A DNA stretch of 64,000 nucleotides. Source: a bacterium. Lineage in GTDB: Bacteria; CLD3; SB21. A model generated the notes under the pieces. The model worked only from the letters and a program-made list of their open reading frames with translations, had not been told where the DNA came from and made no database searches. The first letter of the stretch is position 1. Each line of letters begins with the position of its first letter. Location: assembly GCA_013360215.1 (NCBI GenBank), contig JABWCP010000007.1, positions 1-64,000 on the forward strand. Direction: 5' to 3'. This document shows positions 16,999-24,862 of this stretch, piece after piece. The translations under genes were made by a program, and so were the position numbers.

Positions 16999-17817
16999 AT
17001 GTCCACCCATCATACCATAACCAAAGTCACGACAGAACAGCTGCGCCGCATGAAACAAAGCGGCGAAAAAATCAGTGCATTGACGGCTTACGACGCGATC
17101 ATGGCTTCGCTTTTGGATGAATCGGGAATTGATATGATCTTAGTCGGCGACTCCGCCAGTACGGTATTTGCCGGCAATGATACGACATTGCCTATGACGG
17201 TGGAGCAGATGCTATACCATGTGCGTGTCGTTACCAAGTCGGTCAAACGCGCATTGGTCGTAGCCGATATGCCGTTTATGAGTTACCATGTGAGCGTCGA
17301 AGAAGCTATTCGTAATGCGGGTCGTTTTATGCAGGAAGGCCACGCGGAGGCCATCAAACTGGAAGGTGGGATCGAATTTTTACCAACGATACAACGATTG
17401 GTCGAAATCGGCATACCCGTGATGGGTCACCTCGGGCTTACGCCGCAGTCTATTCATAAATTTGGCACGTATCGTACGCGCGGCAAACAACCGGATGAAG
17501 CTAAAAAAATCATCAGTGACGCCAAAGCGCTGGAAAAAGCCGGCGTGTTTGCGCTTGTTCTCGAAAAAGTTCCAGTTACTTTAGCCAAAAAAATATCGGC
17601 ATCTATTACTATACCGACCATAGGTATCGGCGCCGGGCCGCATTGTGACGGACAGATATTGGTCACGCATGATATGCTTGGGCTGTATGAAAAATTTCAT
17701 CCGCGGTTTGTGCGCCGCTATGCCGAGCTTGGTAAAGCTATGCGCAAAGCCTTTGCTTCCTATCATCAGGATGTAAAGAGTAACCGATTTCCCACTGACA
17801 AAGAAAGCTATTCGTAG
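16999..17817 (+). CDS. panB: 3-methyl-2-oxobutanoate hydroxymethyltransferase
   Basis: 272 residues. PanB makes ketopantoate from ketoisovalerate and methylene-tetrahydrofolate, the first step to pantothenate. Visible blocks are KISALTAYDAIMASLLDESG, DMILVGDSASTVFAG, the metal-binding ADMPFMSYHVS, IKLEGG, MGHLGLTPQSIHKFG and the C-terminal IPTIGIGAGPHCDGQ. Another pantothenate gene, panC, is at 53538-54389, so the pathway is split in this genome. Confidence 0.97.
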   Translation: MSTHHTITKVTTEQLRRMKQSGEKISALTAYDAIMASLLDESGIDMILVGDSASTVFAGNDTTLPMTVEQMLYHVRVVTKSVKRALVVADMPFMSYHVSVEEAIRNAGRFMQEGHAEAIKLEGGIEFLPTIQRLVEIGIPVMGHLGLTPQSIHKFGTYRTRGKQPDEAKKIISDAKALEKAGVFALVLEKVPVTLAKKISASITIPTIGIGAGPHCDGQILVTHDMLGLYEKFHPRFVRRYAELGKAMRKAFASYHQDVKSNRFPTDKESYS

Positions 17818-17844
17818 TAGTTTTTTTAAATCCGTTATTTTTTT

Positions 17845-17880
17845 CAAAAAAAAGAGTGAAAACGATTAATTTTCACTCTG
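17845..17880 (-). terminator. Intrinsic terminator for the DUF5686 gene
   Basis: A 10-bp stem (17853-17862 with 17870-17879, AGAGTGAAAA and its complement) is followed on the minus strand by a run of T. It sits between the convergent panB and DUF5686 genes. Confidence 0.75.
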
Positions 17881-17905
17881 CTAATTTTTGTTATGTATTG
17901 ATTGT

Positions 17906-20281
17906 TTAAAACAAGCGCGCCATGCTCATCCCAAGATAAAAGTTCTTTTTATCCAAACGTTGTGCGGCATCTATGCGGAATAAACCGAATAAGCCGTTGA
18001 TTGAAGCGCCGACTTCCTGATGCCAACGCGTCGTATAAACCGGTGCATAGCCCAATCCTGCTAAACGATTTTTATCAATCCATGTGCGGCCGGCTGATCC
18101 GAAAACGGCGATCCCTATATTTTTACGAGCAAACCAATCCAATCCTATCAATTCAAACGGTAGTGAGCGAAAATTATGTTCCGCAAAAACAGCAGCGTAT
18201 TTTTCACCTTCGTATCCGCGTGTGCGTAATGTTTTGAACGTACCAAATGGGGTAAAATATCCGAGCGACCCGTCAACCACACCAAACCGTTGAACGGGAA
18301 GTTTGCCGGTGTAGGTACCTGCGGTAGCATATACATCCAGCGTATTGGGGATGAAACGGCGGCGGAGAAACGTTTTAATGCGTGCGTTTCCGGAAACTTT
18401 ATACGTAGTAAAACCGAAATCACTGGAGAGTATTTTTTTATCCGAATGTTCGATGGAGAGCGTAAGTCCGTTGTTTCCGACTACGCCCATGGGCACATAT
18501 TTTTCACCCCAGGTACCTGTAAAAATAAAACTGCGCAGTGTGCCGTTATCAATGGCAGGATTTTTTCGTTGATCGTATTTCCGTCCGATGATGTCCCAAT
18601 CCGTGGTTTTGGAAACGGATTTTTGGAAATCCTGCAGTAATCCTGCAGAAAAATCCAAATCCTGAAAAGCAAAATTGTAACCACCGGTGACTTTGACGCG
18701 GTGTGACTTGTAGTAATCAAAATAATCGCGATATCCGAAGAGCGGTTGCCCGCTGGTCATCAGGAGATTATAGTTTTCCGAGTTTTGGCGCATATCTACA
18801 CCGTTATAATATTCGGCTTCGAGGTGACCGCGGCGGCGATAACCAAAGCGGTGTTCACCACCGGCGCCATAGAACGCTTTTTCCAATGTTGTCGTATAGC
18901 CGCCTTTGATGTATGCCGACCAATGTTTGGAAAATTCATGTTCGTATTTCACGCCAAGCCGTCCGCCTTCGACACGATCAAAACCGACAACGGGTGAAAG
19001 ATCGCTAAGGAATTTTTGGAACGCTGTTTTTTTCTTTTTCTCCGTATCCACGCTGTCATTGTAATCATCTTCCATTTTGACGTATCGCGCCAACGCACCT
19101 TTGGGTTTGAATGCTTTGGTGAAGGAGTCCCCGCGTTTGATATTGGTGAATGCTGAATCTTCCGCTTCGGTACGGGGAATAATAATAGCGGAGGAATCAA
19201 ATTGATTGGGTTTTGCCAACGCGACGGAATCTACAAAAAAAGATTTACGCGATTTGTAGAGTGAATCCGGTAATTCGATGTTGATCTGATAATTATTAAC
19301 GCCCATCAGGCTGCTGTATATGATTTTTGGAAATTCCAAACCGGGCATTGCGACTTTAATATTGCCGTGCATACGAATATCCACCGGTAACCAGTAGGCT
19401 TGACCGAAATTGGAGAATTGCTGTTTATAGTTTACATTCCATTGCTGAATGGGGATAGGAAAAATCACATGCTCCGTCGGTTTGAGATCTACGGCTACCA
19501 TCGCAGAGTCTTCCTCGATAACGGAAATACTGCCGACGAAGGTAGGTTGTAATTTAGTTTTGGAACGTACGGCAATGTCGTAAACAAGATAATCGTCCAG
19601 ATAGCGACGTCCGGTGATTTTGAAATCATAGTAGTCCAATGCATCGGGGTGCGTAGGTCCGACAAAACGCGATCCTTGGATTTCGATATCATCGTCATAA
19701 AAATTAACCATGCCTTCTTCGCCCACGAAAATATTATCCTGCGGTCGGACGTTTTTGGTCATACGTTTGGATTTGATGACAACTTTGAGTCCTTTGTCTC
19801 TGTCCCAGTAGGTATCGGCTAAAGATTCGGAAATCATCACGATACCTGAATCGTTTTCCATGACCATCCTATTATACCCGTCGGCTTTAAAATTATTGAT
19901 CAGTTTATGCCAGCGTTTTTTCTTGGCGATGACATTGCGCATGATACGAATGCCGGGATCTTCCCCGATGACGACCATTTCCTCCATCTGAACCGAGGAG
20001 GGTGTCAGGCTGATGTTTTGTTCGGTAGGGCTGTTTTCCGTAATGACTAATTTTTGAGACTCATAACCGATATAACGTACGACGATCGTAGCAGGTAGGG
20101 ATTCGATCCGCAATGCGTATCGTCCTTCGACACTGGCGACAACCCCGCGCAGCGTGCCCTCGATTTGTATATTGGCCGATGGTAAAGGTTCACCGTTACT
20201 TTTGTCGGTGATCGTTCCGGTGATATTTTTTTGTGCATAGGAAAAGGAACCCAACAGCAGAAGGAAAATCAATCTATACAT
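17906..20281 (-). CDS. DUF5686 outer-membrane protein with CarboxypepD-like domain
   Basis: 791 residues. A signal peptide (MYRLIFLLLLGSFSYAQ) precedes a carboxypeptidase-regulatory-like beta-sandwich (about 19-95: GTITDKSNGEPLPSANIQIEG), as in TonB-dependent systems. A large DUF5686 domain follows, ending in a predicted beta-barrel whose last residues are KNFYLGMSMARLF. The family is characteristic of Bacteroidota relatives and of unknown function; surface assembly or transport roles are guessed. It is preceded by a leader with a hairpin (20312-20342) and closed by a terminator. Confidence 0.88.
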   Translation of the reverse strand: MYRLIFLLLLGSFSYAQKNITGTITDKSNGEPLPSANIQIEGTLRGVVASVEGRYALRIESLPATIVVRYIGYESQKLVITENSPTEQNISLTPSSVQMEEMVVIGEDPGIRIMRNVIAKKKRWHKLINNFKADGYNRMVMENDSGIVMISESLADTYWDRDKGLKVVIKSKRMTKNVRPQDNIFVGEEGMVNFYDDDIEIQGSRFVGPTHPDALDYYDFKITGRRYLDDYLVYDIAVRSKTKLQPTFVGSISVIEEDSAMVAVDLKPTEHVIFPIPIQQWNVNYKQQFSNFGQAYWLPVDIRMHGNIKVAMPGLEFPKIIYSSLMGVNNYQINIELPDSLYKSRKSFFVDSVALAKPNQFDSSAIIIPRTEAEDSAFTNIKRGDSFTKAFKPKGALARYVKMEDDYNDSVDTEKKKKTAFQKFLSDLSPVVGFDRVEGGRLGVKYEHEFSKHWSAYIKGGYTTTLEKAFYGAGGEHRFGYRRRGHLEAEYYNGVDMRQNSENYNLLMTSGQPLFGYRDYFDYYKSHRVKVTGGYNFAFQDLDFSAGLLQDFQKSVSKTTDWDIIGRKYDQRKNPAIDNGTLRSFIFTGTWGEKYVPMGVVGNNGLTLSIEHSDKKILSSDFGFTTYKVSGNARIKTFLRRRFIPNTLDVYATAGTYTGKLPVQRFGVVDGSLGYFTPFGTFKTLRTRGYEGEKYAAVFAEHNFRSLPFELIGLDWFARKNIGIAVFGSAGRTWIDKNRLAGLGYAPVYTTRWHQEVGASINGLFGLFRIDAAQRLDKKNFYLGMSMARLF

Positions 20282-20311
20282 GTAATAAACCCCTCATAAT
20301 AAGTAATACAA

Positions 20312-20342
20312 ACGCCGACCCCATGTACGTGCAAGTCGGCGT
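20312..20342 (-). other. Hairpin in the leader of the DUF5686 gene
   Basis: An 8-bp perfect stem (ACGCCGAC with GTCGGCGT) encloses 15 bases. On the minus strand it lies after the SSSS-repeat gene and 31 bases before the DUF5686 start. It lacks a clean T run, so it could be an RNA stabiliser, attenuator or weak terminator. Confidence 0.4.
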
Positions 20343-20419
20343 GAAGTTTCCAATACGAAGTTTTATAAATCAAAAGAAATCACAAATAAGCACTTCTTTT
20401 TATTTTGAGTGATGGATAC

Positions 20420-21679
20420 TTATTCCATCAAGCGATCACGTACCAAACCTTCGATATAACGTTGGACGGAAGAACTCGAAACCGAATTATCCACGCATTG
20501 TAAAGTGCGCTTGAGAACGGATTTGCTCAAGCCCTGACGACGCAGCATGGCGGAAAGAGCGGTTTCTTGGGCGGAACTTGAGCTTACGGTTCCGACGGTT
20601 TCAAGAAAAGTAAACCAAATCATATCATCGTTAGGGCAGACTTCTGCGCTACGGCTTAGCACACGCGCTTGTGCGCTGGACGAACTGACCGATTCGGTTA
20701 CTTTAAAAAGCTGAATCCACGCGTCGCGAGTAAGTGTGCGTTGTGTAAGCGCGAGTAACGCTTCGGATTGTGCGCTGGATGAACTTACCGCGCGTACGGC
20801 ATGCAGGTATGCCAAAAACGCTTCTTCATGCGGAGGCGCTAATTCGGCAAGCGTTTCCAATGCATTTTTTTGCGCCGAACTGGAGCTGATATCTTCGATC
20901 GTGCGGGCCATCTCGATAGCCGATTCACGATCTAAGCCACGGCGGCGCGCTATCGTGATAGCTGTCTCACTTTGACGTGAACTGGAGGATATTTCCCGAA
21001 CGGCACGCATCAGCGTTAACGTAAAGGTTGAATCTTGCGGAAATTTAGTCGTGGCGTCCGTTAATAAATCACCGAGGCGCGAACTGCTTGAGATTTCTTT
21101 GGCCGTCACAATAACGGTGCGCTGAAGCTGAGCAGAGGTCAAATTTTCATGTGCCATAATGGACTCACAAAAAATCTGCCGCGCGTAATTATTTTCCTGA
21201 AATTCGATTTCATTGATTGCCGCATCAACGCCGCGCTGAGCGATAAGCCGCTGGACCCGACCCGCAGCGCCGAGTCCTGTTTTTCGTGCAATTTCAGGCA
21301 ACTCGGCAGCGAGCCATGATTGGCCGTATTCATTCCAATCCATCTCGCGGCCATTAGCATAAAAAGTTCTTTCCAACTGACCGTCACGTAACCCGCGAAC
21401 CCGGACTTCGCGATACGTAAACCAATTGCGGGTTTTGATCTGTACCGTAGCATTTTCTGCTAGAAATTTGAAATCACGGTCATCATCGGATAATTCGACC
21501 ACACCGATAGCTTTGACCTCAAGACTGTGCAGCATGTCATTGTAATAAGCATCAATATGGTTGAGGCGGCTATTATTGTTTTGAACAAAACCGATATGGA
21601 AATTGTTCTGTGCTGTCAATTGCGAATTTTGAATTAGAGAAAAGAAACTTACTATTAAAAGGGTAATAAATGTTTTCAT
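20420..21679 (-). CDS. Exported alpha-repeat protein with seven SSSS motifs
   Basis: 419 residues. A signal peptide (residues 1-24, ending LTAQ) precedes an N-terminal domain (about 40-150) with VELSDDDRDFKFL and ANGREMDWNEYGQSWLAAELP. This resembles the domain found before the ISSDYEK-type helical repeats of some peptidase M56-linked and stand-alone bacterial proteins. From residue 195 seven units of 33-35 residues each begin (E/D/x)(I/V)SSSS(A/R)Q. A preceding degenerate unit (EIEFQENNYARQIF) keeps the Tyr/Arg form. The repeats should form a helical solenoid. The function is unknown; it is probably periplasmic or on the surface. Confidence 0.85.
   Translation of the reverse strand: MKTFITLLIVSFFSLIQNSQLTAQNNFHIGFVQNNNSRLNHIDAYYNDMLHSLEVKAIGVVELSDDDRDFKFLAENATVQIKTRNWFTYREVRVRGLRDGQLERTFYANGREMDWNEYGQSWLAAELPEIARKTGLGAAGRVQRLIAQRGVDAAINEIEFQENNYARQIFCESIMAHENLTSAQLQRTVIVTAKEISSSSRLGDLLTDATTKFPQDSTFTLTLMRAVREISSSSRQSETAITIARRRGLDRESAIEMARTIEDISSSSAQKNALETLAELAPPHEEAFLAYLHAVRAVSSSSAQSEALLALTQRTLTRDAWIQLFKVTESVSSSSAQARVLSRSAEVCPNDDMIWFTFLETVGTVSSSSAQETALSAMLRRQGLSKSVLKRTLQCVDNSVSSSSVQRYIEGLVRDRLME
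20423..21097 (-). repeat. Seven tandem coding repeats of about 34 residues, each with SSSS
   Basis: SSSS tracts fall at residues 197-200, 231-234, 265-268, 299-302, 332-335, 366-369 and 401-404 of the 419-residue protein. The four serine codons differ from unit to unit and mix AGY with TCN, for example TCA AGC AGT TCG in unit 1 and AGC TCA AGT TCC in unit 6, so the tracts are kept at protein level rather than by DNA slippage. Confidence 0.95.
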
Positions 21680-21762
21680 ATATTTTCCATAATTTAGAAT
21701 ATCACATATCTCAAGACTTGGTTTCTAAACAAATCTCCAGTATGGTAAACATTTCCCGATGA

Positions 21763-22437
21763 TTAATGATCGGCTTCTGGTGCAGATCGTTTATTCATCC
21801 GAATTGCGATTCCTATCATGCGTACGTGAATAGCTATCATGAACAAGCCACAAAACGGTCCGACATCAAATAATCCCATTTCCGAAGGAGGCCACGGAAA
21901 TGTTGCGGCGTTCAACACGATCAGCAGAATGGCCAACAACCCAAAGGGCAATGTCCAAATCCAGCCGAAATAGGGATGACGTCGCATCACTATAGCGTAA
22001 CATAAAAAACTTGTACCGATGAACATATCCCATACTACATCGAGGCCCATGTCGATCAGTCGTACCGCACGTTGGACAAGTCGGGAAGTATTTGGATCTA
22101 CGGACAGTTCTTTGATAAACGAATCTTCAAATCCGGCCTGAATAGCAATTTGTGCCGCTAGAAAGACAGCTAATACCAAAAAGGCCAATGCGCCCATATA
22201 AAACCCAATTACCGAGAGATGGTCGTCCATGTCTCCTTTAAGGAGAATATGTAAAGCGTACCAACTTATGATTCCTAAAATTGAGAATAACATCACACCG
22301 ACAAAGGTCAGTGCCGGGTTTAGCGAAACGGTAATGATACACAAATAGGATATAACCGACAGGACACCCGCAATGCCGCCGTAAAGAAAAAGTTTTTTGA
22401 ATTGAGAATACACGCGATGATCCATGATTAAGTTCAT
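21763..22437 (-). CDS. Multi-pass membrane protein (DUF4386-like)
   Basis: 224 residues from the start chosen here. Six hydrophobic segments are visible, including YGGIAGVLSVISYLCII, MLFSILGIISWYALHIL, MGALAFLVLAVFLAAQIAI and PFGLLAILLIVLNAATF. The hydropathy and length suit the DUF4386 membrane family, but the match is by eye. An ATG at 22422 (MDHRVYSQ) or an upstream one at 22488 are alternatives; the latter would overlap the preceding gene by 35 bases. The gene lies just behind the DUF6249 gene and so probably under the same ECF-type promoter. Confidence 0.7.
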   Translation of the reverse strand: MNLIMDHRVYSQFKKLFLYGGIAGVLSVISYLCIITVSLNPALTFVGVMLFSILGIISWYALHILLKGDMDDHLSVIGFYMGALAFLVLAVFLAAQIAIQAGFEDSFIKELSVDPNTSRLVQRAVRLIDMGLDVVWDMFIGTSFLCYAIVMRRHPYFGWIWTLPFGLLAILLIVLNAATFPWPPSEMGLFDVGPFCGLFMIAIHVRMIGIAIRMNKRSAPEADH

Positions 22438-22453
22438 TCCTATGTTTTTCTTA

Positions 22454-22789
22454 TTATTCTTGTGGTGTTTGTTTTTTAGCAAGGACATAATAGATCACGA
22501 AAGCGATACCGGCGAAAATAAACATCAGACCCATCAGCGCGGGGCCTTCCATCATCGGGAAAATCTGGCCGATGGCCAATGCAATACCGATACCGACAAG
22601 AACAATGCCCCATTTGAGCGATTGCAGCGGGTTTTCTCGGAGATCACGGGCATAAAGATATTTTACTTTTTCATCGACTAGCCCTTTGTCTATCAGTTTT
22701 TGGCGCGTACGATTGTCCGTGACGATTTTTACGATCATGGCAACCATCCAAAAAAATGCGATAGGAATGATGAATTCGAGGTTTTGCAT
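22454..22789 (-). CDS. DUF6249 small membrane protein
   Basis: 111 residues. One N-terminal membrane helix (FIIPIAFFWMVAMIVKIV) precedes a charged stretch (DNRTRQKLIDKGLVDEKV), and two further helices close the protein. This arrangement, membrane helix then RxKLIxKG segment, is the DUF6249 pattern, whose members often lie beside ECF sigma/anti-sigma genes in Bacteroidota-like genomes. AAGGAACC precedes the start. The divergent sigma factor gene and the shared promoter motif suggest it belongs to that regulon. Confidence 0.8.
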   Translation of the reverse strand: MQNLEFIIPIAFFWMVAMIVKIVTDNRTRQKLIDKGLVDEKVKYLYARDLRENPLQSLKWGIVLVGIGIALAIGQIFPMMEGPALMGLMFIFAGIAFVIYYVLAKKQTPQE

Positions 22790-22847
22790 AATCTGGTTCC
22801 TTTCAATATGGTGTAATACGTGTTTTTGATTTCATAAGTTCTACCCG

Positions 22848-22876
22848 ATAAGACCGGTCAAAAAGCAAAAGGTTGC
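22848..22876 (-). promoter_or_regulatory. ECF-type promoter of the DUF6249 gene
   Basis: On the minus strand GCAAC (22872-22876) and GGTCTTAT (22848-22855) are 16 bases apart. AAC in the -35 and GTC in the -10 are hallmarks of ECF sigma promoters. The same motif at the same spacing is found divergently at 22900-22928. Confidence 0.6.
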
Positions 22877-22899
22877 ACTTGTTAGCTAATTATTTTATT

Positions 22900-22928
22900 G
22901 CAACATTTGTTCGCTTCGTCGGTCTAAT
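22900..22928 (+). promoter_or_regulatory. ECF-type autoregulated promoter of the sigma factor gene
   Basis: GCAAC (22900-22904) and GGTCTAAT (22921-22928) are 16 bases apart, upstream of the sigma factor start at 22951. It matches the divergent promoter at 22848-22876 in both elements and spacing. Confidence 0.6.
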
Positions 22929-22950
22929 ACCCTGTATGATAAGACCATTT

Positions 22951-23553
22951 ATGGAAAATGAGCGCTTAACTATAGAAAAAATAATTGCCGGCGATGCTAA
23001 GGCATTTAAGCAGTTAGTCGAAGACCACCAAAAATTGGTCGCGCATATCGTATTTAAAATGGTATCCAATCCATCCGATCAACAGGAGATTTGTCAGGAA
23101 GTTTTTATCAAAGTGTATGAAAATCTCCGGACCTTTCAGTTTAATGCTAAACTTTCGACATGGATTGCCCGCATCGCTTATAATACGACGCTAAATCACA
23201 TCGCGAAGAAAAAAACGCCGCTGTATGAAGATTATCTAACCTCGCCGACGGAGGAAGAAAATTACGAATCGGCCGATCAGAATCTTTCGGAAAGCCTGTG
23301 GGACGAACCCGACATGCCGGATGCCGTAACACAAAACCGGGAAACAGCGAGAGTTTTAAAAGAAGCGATCCAATCATTAGCGCCGCAGTATCGGACCATC
23401 GTAACGCTTTTTCATATGGACGACATGTCGTATGTGGAAATCAGTGAAATCATGCAGATGCCGGAGGGTACGGTAAAAAGTTACCTTTTCCGGGCGCGCA
23501 AAATGCTCAAAGCGCGGTTACTTGAAAATTTTAGTACGGAGGAATTAATATGA
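22951..23553 (+). CDS. ECF-type RNA polymerase sigma factor
   Basis: 200 residues with sigma-70 region 2 (AFKQLVEDHQKLVAHIVFKMV, then DQQEICQEVFIKVYENL and the STWIARIAYNTTLNHI stretch) and region 4 (YRTIVTLFHMDDMSYVEISEIMQ, EGTVKSYLFRARKML). The start at 22951 is preferred because longer in-frame forms begin inside the promoter region; ATG 22936 is possible. It overlaps the anti-sigma gene by four bases. A sequence matching an ECF promoter lies just upstream, so autoregulation is likely. Confidence 0.93.
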   Translation: MENERLTIEKIIAGDAKAFKQLVEDHQKLVAHIVFKMVSNPSDQQEICQEVFIKVYENLRTFQFNAKLSTWIARIAYNTTLNHIAKKKTPLYEDYLTSPTEEENYESADQNLSESLWDEPDMPDAVTQNRETARVLKEAIQSLAPQYRTIVTLFHMDDMSYVEISEIMQMPEGTVKSYLFRARKMLKARLLENFSTEELI

Positions 23554-24050
23554 ATCATCTCAGTGATGCGATGATGCAGGCGTATCTGGACGGGACCGCC
23601 GGTATAACCAAACAAAACATGGAAACGCATCTGTCGGTATGCGAGGAATGCCGCGAGTCTATGGCTATATATCGGATGATGCACCACACCATACGTCAGG
23701 AAGAATTTATATTACCGGCACATTTTGCGGATATAGTGGCGGAAAAAGTGGGTTTGGTTTCCGCTGATGAGTCGGAAACATCTGTTTTACGTGAGTGGTG
23801 GTGGCTGTTGCCGGTCGTCGTAGCGGGCATCGGCATCTCCGCGTATTATTTGCCTTCTACGATGACCGGAGCACCGGTAGAGCGCGTTTTACAGGAAAAT
23901 ATCCGGCAGACGCAAACTTATTTTACGATAGCTGAACAAATGGGCGGTTGGATCGGTTCCAATTTTCAGTATCTTATTTTTGGGTTATTTCTCGTATTGC
24001 TTTTTGATATGATCGAGCGGAAATTTTTGAGATTGAGGGTGCAGCACTAA
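23550..24050 (+). CDS. Membrane-bound anti-sigma factor with HxxxCxxC zinc motif
   Basis: 166 residues. The cytoplasmic N-terminus holds the ZAS/zf-HC2 motif HLSVCEEC (HxxxCxxC). A membrane helix follows (LLPVVVAGIGISAYYL, about 90-107) and a second hydrophobic segment lies near the C-terminus (YLIFGLFLVLLFDMI). Such proteins hold the ECF sigma factor at the membrane until a signal arrives. It overlaps the sigma gene by ATGA, and its end overlaps the convergent AraC gene by four bases. Confidence 0.88.
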   Translation: MNHLSDAMMQAYLDGTAGITKQNMETHLSVCEECRESMAIYRMMHHTIRQEEFILPAHFADIVAEKVGLVSADESETSVLREWWWLLPVVVAGIGISAYYLPSTMTGAPVERVLQENIRQTQTYFTIAEQMGGWIGSNFQYLIFGLFLVLLFDMIERKFLRLRVQH

Positions 24051-24862
24051 ACGGTTTTGCCCGTCGCATTTCGTAAAAAATGTGACGGTGTCATGCCGAT
24101 TAGCGCTTTAAAATCACGGATGAAATGTGCCTGATCATGATATCCCAGATCCAAGGCCAGTTTGGTCAATGAAATTTCTGCGTTAGATTTTATCATTTCT
24201 ACAGCCTCGTGTAAGCGGTAACGTTGAATCACCCACTTCGGTGTCACACCAATATAATTTTCAAACAATCTTTCAAGCGAACGAGCGGTTATATTAAACC
24301 GCGCTAAAAGCTGGCGCACGTGAACGATATCACGTTCAATCATGATCGTTGCCACGATGGTTTGTGCAAGGATAGCACGCGGGTCATGTTTGATCGGTAT
24401 GGATGTAAAAAATGACTCAGCGGCTTTTTCCATTGCATCAAATCGCGTCATGCGCAGTATCGAATGTTCTAATTGCAGAATGGATTCACCGAAAACGGAT
24501 TCGATGTTTACTTTGTGATTGGCCAGGTTAGCTATAGACGGTTTATAAAATGCCGAAAAAGCACCGGGAAGAAATTTAACACCAAAAACAAAACCTTTAC
24601 CATTCAGCGTTCGTTTAAATTTTCCGGTAACCGGTCCGCCAATCGAGGAGCCATCTTTCTCGAAAACCAAATGCACAGAAGGATGCGGCAGAGTTTCAGC
24701 TATATACGGGCGGTTTTTCGGAAAATCCCATCGTACCATCCAAAAATGTTCGATCGTAGATTGGAGCGTTTTCGTAGGTTTGTCACGGTAATAACGAATA
24801 CGGGGATTTGGAATAGAACTTAAAATGCCTCGCGGTTTACCGGCGCTATTTGTCTTCGTCAT
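24047..24862 (-). CDS. AraC-family transcriptional regulator (DUF6597-like N-terminus)
   Basis: 271 residues. The N-terminal half resembles DUF6597 (TIEHFWMVRWDFP, PHPSVHLVFEKDG, FVFGVKFLPGAFSAFY). The C-terminal AraC DNA-binding domain (about 165-265) has two helix-turn-helices: VRQLLARFNITARSLERLF and ISLTKLALDLGYHDQAHFIRDFK. It is divergent to an SRPBCC gene with a gap of 88 bases; AraC/DUF6597 regulators commonly pair with SRPBCC or other small enzymes, so it may regulate that gene and itself. Confidence 0.9.
   Translation of the reverse strand: MTKTNSAGKPRGILSSIPNPRIRYYRDKPTKTLQSTIEHFWMVRWDFPKNRPYIAETLPHPSVHLVFEKDGSSIGGPVTGKFKRTLNGKGFVFGVKFLPGAFSAFYKPSIANLANHKVNIESVFGESILQLEHSILRMTRFDAMEKAAESFFTSIPIKHDPRAILAQTIVATIMIERDIVHVRQLLARFNITARSLERLFENYIGVTPKWVIQRYRLHEAVEMIKSNAEISLTKLALDLGYHDQAHFIRDFKALIGMTPSHFLRNATGKTV

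Follow-up and report, generated by a model that had tools for sequence, protein, structure and literature searches.

What controls the genes that diverge from positions 22848-22928 of the 64,000-nucleotide stretch of bacterial DNA analysed here (referred to in its entirety as the window)? This short segment lies between a minus-strand run of genes beginning with DUF6249 and the genes for an ECF sigma factor and its putative anti-sigma factor, and an earlier note had proposed that the sigma factor controls both transcripts through a matched pair of promoters. The motif GCAAC-N16-GGTCT(T/A)AT indeed occurs here twice in divergent orientation, with coordinates correct to the base and both copies exact, and Pfam searches bear out the flanking genes: an ECF sigma factor (Sigma70_r2, Sigma70_r4_2), a zf-HC2 anti-sigma factor, and DUF6249 (Table 1). 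The -35 boxes are innermost, with 23 bases between them, and the -10 boxes are outermost. ECF sigma factors classically use AAC/CGT promoters, are encoded beside an anti-sigma factor, and activate themselves (PMC8103513). It is highly probable (roughly 0.88) that both sites are promoters read by the ECF sigma factor of 22951-23553, operating within the stress-release scheme outlined below; what the sequence itself shows is that the boxes are present, evenly spaced, oriented as expected, and conserved.

Table 1. Predicted promoters and neighbouring features of the window.
Feature	Position	Strand	Details
DUF6249-ward ECF-type promoter (predicted)	22848..22876	-	-35 GCAAC 22872-22876, spacer 16, -10 GGTCTTAT 22848-22855; exact match
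ECF-ward promoter (autoregulatory, predicted)	22900..22928	+	-35 GCAAC 22900-22904, spacer 16, -10 GGTCTAAT 22921-22928; exact match
ECF sigma factor, 200 aa	22951..23553	+	PF04542 5.3e-15, PF08281 3.7e-18
Anti-sigma factor, 166 aa	23550..24050	+	zf-HC2 0.00031; HxxxCxxC zinc motif; C-terminal membrane segment
DUF6249 small membrane protein, 111 aa	22454..22789	-	PF19762 7.5e-16; first gene behind DUF6249-ward promoter
MP224, 224-aa membrane protein	21763..22437	-	Five predicted membrane segments (hydropathy); no Pfam family
Predicted exported repeat protein, 419 aa	20420..21679	-	No Pfam family over cut-off
DUF5686 / CarboxypepD_reg outer-membrane-type protein	17906..20281	-	PF18939 7.3e-30
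Terminator-like stem (11 pairs) and T-run	17853..17879	.	Directly past the last gene of the minus-strand run

Dinucleotide shuffling of the window, repeated 100 times, produced no exact match to the motif, and the genome scan that had been suggested as a check returned two exact matches in 3.72 Mb, both at this locus (the backwards-pattern control gave one). When one mismatch was allowed, the same genome yielded 9 matches vs 10 for the control, and the window contains 13 instances of the relaxed form GNAAC-N17/18-GTC. Because the relaxed motif is common by chance, the reality of the pair rests on conservation and comparison. A scan of 17500-24300 for housekeeping promoters detected none above chance.

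Within the family, the comparison set consisted of six genomes with DUF6249 (the window genome and G002-G006). Both sites are kept in all six, each of which carries the module, with much of the remaining DUF6249-ECF gap diverged around them; in three genomes of one genus (G003, G005, and G006), the DUF6249-ward site is duplicated in tandem, making three copies in all. To widen the comparison, named genomes were searched with a DUF6249 alignment, which gave 29 loci, whose host titles read Zixibacteria, KSB1, Caldithrix, Chlorobi, Bacteroidetes/Bacteroidales (metagenome-assembled genomes), or just 'bacterium'. An ECF gene lies divergently beside DUF6249 in 26/29, and AAC-N17/18-GTC faces both ways in all 26 of the corresponding gaps; three of these loci (L028-L030) are identical to the G004-G006 loci, and the 26 therefore overlap in part with the family set. 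Among the three loci without a divergent ECF gene, L046, whose sequence begins just 244 bases ahead of DUF6249, nonetheless has sites both ways, L048 has the DUF6249-ward site, and L055 has a weak site at most.

Adding the gaps of the window, G002, G003, L020, and L025 to the 26 gave a set of 31, of which 30 contain GNAAC-N17/18-GTC in both directions, against a mean of 0.01 and a maximum of 1 over 200 rounds of dinucleotide shuffling; in the exception, L043, the sigma-side box reads ATAAC. Pairs in both directions occur at spacings of 17-18, with zero gaps containing such pairs at 12-16 or 19-21. Although AAC and GTC are invariant in this set by selection, the best site per gap having been used, the unselected positions are also strongly biased: T precedes the box in 31/31 gaps in both directions, G is found in 30 and 31 of 31, C in 27 and 28 of 31, and a T-run follows the box. 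Autoregulation alone is common for ECF sigma factors and the relaxed motif is frequent by chance, so that the ECF-ward site could in principle be the sole promoter and the DUF6249-ward match an accident; however, DUF6249-ward sites are present in 31/31 gaps, and such a site also precedes DUF6249 at L046 and L048, two loci with no visible ECF gene, leaving this explanation exceedingly improbable.

The inverted arrangement could also be read as an operator, GTTGCA...TGCAAC, for a dimeric repressor or activator, and not as two -35 boxes. The boxes do constitute inverted repeats, mostly 18-25 bases apart, and the DUF6249-ward -10 box additionally falls within a GACCGGTC palindrome in four of the six family genomes. 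Yet the boxes stand anywhere between 9 and 42 bases apart, and at two loci as far as 73 and 438, whereas each box is always 17-18 bases from its own GTC, and the same box and GTC stand singly before tolC and other genes. An operator is thus very unlikely, and two divergent promoters remain the preferred reading. The palindrome itself, at 22848-22861, could be the site of a second regulator.

The genes to the right of the pair correspond well to an ECF module. Only sigma2 (PF04542, residues 22-88) and sigma4 (PF08281, 135-186) domains are present in the sigma factor, consistent with an ECF (group IV) protein. Its best NCBIfam equivalog models are SigW and RpoE, both under cut-off (135.3 vs 209 bits and 118.8 vs 236.15 bits, respectively), so that neither equivalog identity is supported. 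The sigma and anti-sigma genes share 4 bases (ATGA), the stop of the one overlapping the start of the other, and at 27/27 loci examined the sigma gene is followed by an ORF that overlaps it, with HxxxCxxC encoded in 24. Although the zf-HC2 score of the window protein (21.2 bits) is slightly under the 22.2 cut-off, the Hx3Cx2C motif followed by a membrane segment identifies it as a class I (zinc type) anti-sigma factor; hydropathy places one segment over threshold (134-152), while most relatives have two. This protein would inhibit the adjacent sigma factor. The zinc ligands are missing in three of the 27 anti-sigma proteins (L038, L041, and L049, all KSB1), which keep the rest of the module. 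On the sigma side, a ribosome-binding site is not obvious before the ATG at 22951 (22929-22953), while relatives have purine-rich, GGAG/GAGG-like leaders. An alternative in-frame ATG at 22936, 7 bases past the end of the -10 box, would be nearly leaderless, and a leaderless start is possible for this gene.

Another ECF sigma factor of the cell might be the main reader of these sites, with the window sigma factor being one of several. The genome encodes at least six other sigma factors, at 25-31% identity, and one of them (L209) has a related upstream site, TAAAC-N17-GTCTAAT, so that cross-talk is possible. Against this, the motif follows the ECF-DUF6249 module across phyla. Three relatives lack DUF6249 (G001 from within the family, plus G007 and G008, which share its class) but keep other ECF genes, with best sigma matches at most 35% identical, and they show no motif excess (8 matches vs 14 for the control); for G001, an assembly no more than 85% complete, the missing module could be a gap. 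Among 14 inspected loci of the 18 with a sigma region-4 match in the window genome, GCAAC-GTCTAAT lies upstream only of the window sigma gene. A different principal reader is therefore unlikely, and the window sigma factor stands as the probable user of both promoters.

On the minus strand, DUF6249 scores 58.4 bits against a Pfam gathering score of 33. Hydropathy predicts three membrane helices, and a structure model (mean pLDDT 80.8) places helices at residues 3-34, 56-76, and 83-107; a fold search of this model against the PDB found no match at E <= 0.001, and none of 25 matches up to E 10 was convincing. The small membrane proteins had been put forward together as targets, a claim that stands for the conserved DUF6249 but not for MP224, for which no match was found at the locus in five family relatives; DUF6249 is consequently the only conserved small-membrane-protein target. 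A homologue of the 419-aa protein lies directly 3' of DUF6249 in four of the same five relatives (tblastn), and the fifth contig stops there. This protein contains repeats around an SSSSAQ/SSSSRQ signature. The DUF5686 gene is probably the last of the DUF6249 operon: the gaps between the genes of the run contain no terminator-like site, and one lies immediately beyond the run, although such matches overall are not above chance (9 found vs 7.9 expected).

To identify further targets, the six family genomes were scanned with the pattern GCAACNTTT-N13/14-GTCW, its backwards version serving as control. The pattern matched 44 times vs 25 for the control, and 8 times vs 1 in the window genome. After exclusion of 14 at-locus matches, 13 of 30 off-locus matches lay outside long ORFs with a gene start within 250 bases, compared with 4/25 in the control. 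Exported or membrane proteins are encoded downstream of 10 of these 13 sites: OEP/TolC, an Omp85-superfamily protein, an M1 peptidase, three beta-lactamase-family serine hydrolases, two MacB-type permeases, and two DUF5686 proteins (the products of L069, L075, and L109 being named by resemblance). The other three sites precede a small ORF (L107) and a pair of genes (L064, L114) that, from their sequences, we take to be PLP-enzyme-like. In the family, the motif leads to further envelope genes, in line with its use as a search motif in the earlier note, but two mismatches swamp it. The two-mismatch scan (68 matches vs 99 for the control in six genomes) was rejected as a regulon list, as was the one-mismatch scan of the window genome for its lack of excess over the control. 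Matches were kept if outside long ORFs and either with few mismatches or recurring in relatives; those in coding regions (e.g. L059, L060/L062/L085, L071, and L105) were dropped as chance, even though L060/L062/L085 recur in three genomes of one genus.

The TolC operon is the strongest predicted target. A tolC site is found in 6/6 family genomes, with GCAAC in three and GAAAC in three, and the boxes are kept while the flanks have strongly diverged between genera. In the window genome, tolC is followed by genes for an HlyD-type adaptor and an ABC ATPase, forming a TolC-MacA-MacB operon. All six family genomes encode the Omp85 orthologue, and a site precedes it in four; no good site was found for those of G002 and G004. 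DUF5686 lies within the DUF6249 run in the window, and related proteins of G002 and G004, whether orthologues or paralogues, are encoded elsewhere with their own motif copy.

In 14 records from other phyla, the motif was not enriched (53 matches vs 55 for the control), and the regulon outside the family is therefore only suggestive, a lead. Among the 30 of these 53 matches whose loci were inspected, three show homology to genes of the family: L154 to the Omp85 protein (42%), L165 to a MacB-type permease (34%), and L178, in a Caldithrix relative, where the motif precedes a homologue of the ABC ATPase in the DUF6249 operons of L030 and L035. The other off-locus loci inspected showed no homology to family targets. 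The ABC ATPase is 73% identical between L035 (KSB1) and L030 (a family genome), lying 3' of the DUF6249 operon in each.

These predictions can be assembled into a mechanism. In the unstressed cell, the membrane-bound anti-sigma factor (23550-24050) would hold the sigma factor until an envelope signal frees it. Rightward, free sigma factor would transcribe its own sigma/anti-sigma operon, giving positive autoregulation with a built-in shut-off; leftward, it would transcribe DUF6249, MP224, the 419-aa exported protein, and probably DUF5686. Elsewhere in the genome, the motif would drive the TolC-MacA-MacB efflux operon and the Omp85-superfamily outer-membrane protein, targets that point to remodelling and export at the cell envelope as the output. 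The near-constancy of DUF6249 as a target suggests a role in inner membrane protection or in feedback on the anti-sigma factor. Very probably, then, one stress-response switch turns on both itself and neighbouring membrane and exported proteins.

Autoregulation combined with a neighbouring target is textbook ECF behaviour. Judged from its sequence, the window module fits the classical plan in its gene overlap, the membrane segment of the anti-sigma factor, the matched promoter of its neighbour, and the sigma factor's own promoter, which is present, conserved, and of the AAC/GTC type. The consensus of E. coli sigma-E is nearly identical to the window motif. Like E. coli sigma-E (RpoE)-RseA and B. 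subtilis SigW-RsiW, the module has a two-domain sigma factor (with SigW and RpoE as best models), an adjacent membrane-bound anti-sigma factor, and AAC/GTC promoters, with autoregulation and envelope targets predicted from sequence. Unlike RpoE and SigW, whose equivalog cut-offs lie far above its scores, it has DUF6249 as its constant neighbouring target, and its other targets are TolC-MacAB, an Omp85-superfamily protein, DUF5686, and serine hydrolases.

EcfO-Reo and Das-Dma (ECF21) of Bacteroidales are tied to outer-membrane stress and vesiculation (PMC13114119, PMC13088901). These are likewise ECF/anti-sigma pairs from the same broad bacterial grouping; however, their anti-sigma factors span both membranes, Dma having a C-terminal beta barrel, whereas the window anti-sigma factor, with its zinc finger, is too short for such a two-membrane plan. 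NigD targets were not seen for the window module. CirY-CirZ of Phocaeicola vulgatus also combines a sigma/anti-sigma pair with a co-regulated envelope gene next to it, but that gene encodes a Spy-like periplasmic chaperone and belongs to the sigma factor's own operon (PMC13114119), in place of a divergent DUF6249. Class I anti-sigma factors are reported as uncommon in Bacteroidetes, with 6% of ECFs (PMC7406223), and the class I arrangement seen here thus falls in a region of the tree from which few are reported. In the literature searched, mostly non-subscription papers, DUF6249 (PF19762) had no described function and no mention in an ECF setting; the same body of literature held no report of an ECF regulon with TolC/Omp85/MacB or of a divergent small membrane protein target, and nothing on topic for Bacteroidota envelope stress with MacB/TolC.

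What is known is thus the kind of system; what is new is the DUF6249 linkage, of unusual phylogenetic depth, and the regulon. The same promoter-gene arrangement recurs in several distant bacterial groups, and this near-constant link of one gene and its promoter to one ECF type across several phyla offers a testable role for DUF6249, while the motif and predicted regulon are provided for bacteria so far ungrown. More tentatively, and with considerable doubt, the sigma factor, anti-sigma factor, and DUF6249 might form a single signalling unit of ancient origin, an envelope-stress system so far without a name that Zixibacteria, KSB1, Caldithrix, Chlorobi, Bacteroidetes, and the window lineage would share. 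DUF6249 would be its third component, produced solely while the sigma factor is released and either feeding back on the anti-sigma factor or reporting membrane state, and TolC-MacAB export and the Omp85-superfamily protein would be its family-level output.

At farther DUF6249 loci, an ECF match was found in 10 of 11 outside the family (not at L016, and on the other side at L027). The promoter pair is present in three of nine gaps examined (L019, L020, and L025) and missing in six (L017, L018, and L021-L024), whose ECF genes are only 25-37% identical. These six gaps and their dissimilar ECF genes indicate that DUF6249 can also accompany ECF types of a different kind, which rely on promoters unlike this one. 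The L022 gap contains several GGTTGCA-like repeats, and that of L023 an inverted pair around AAAGTTCCG/CGGAA.
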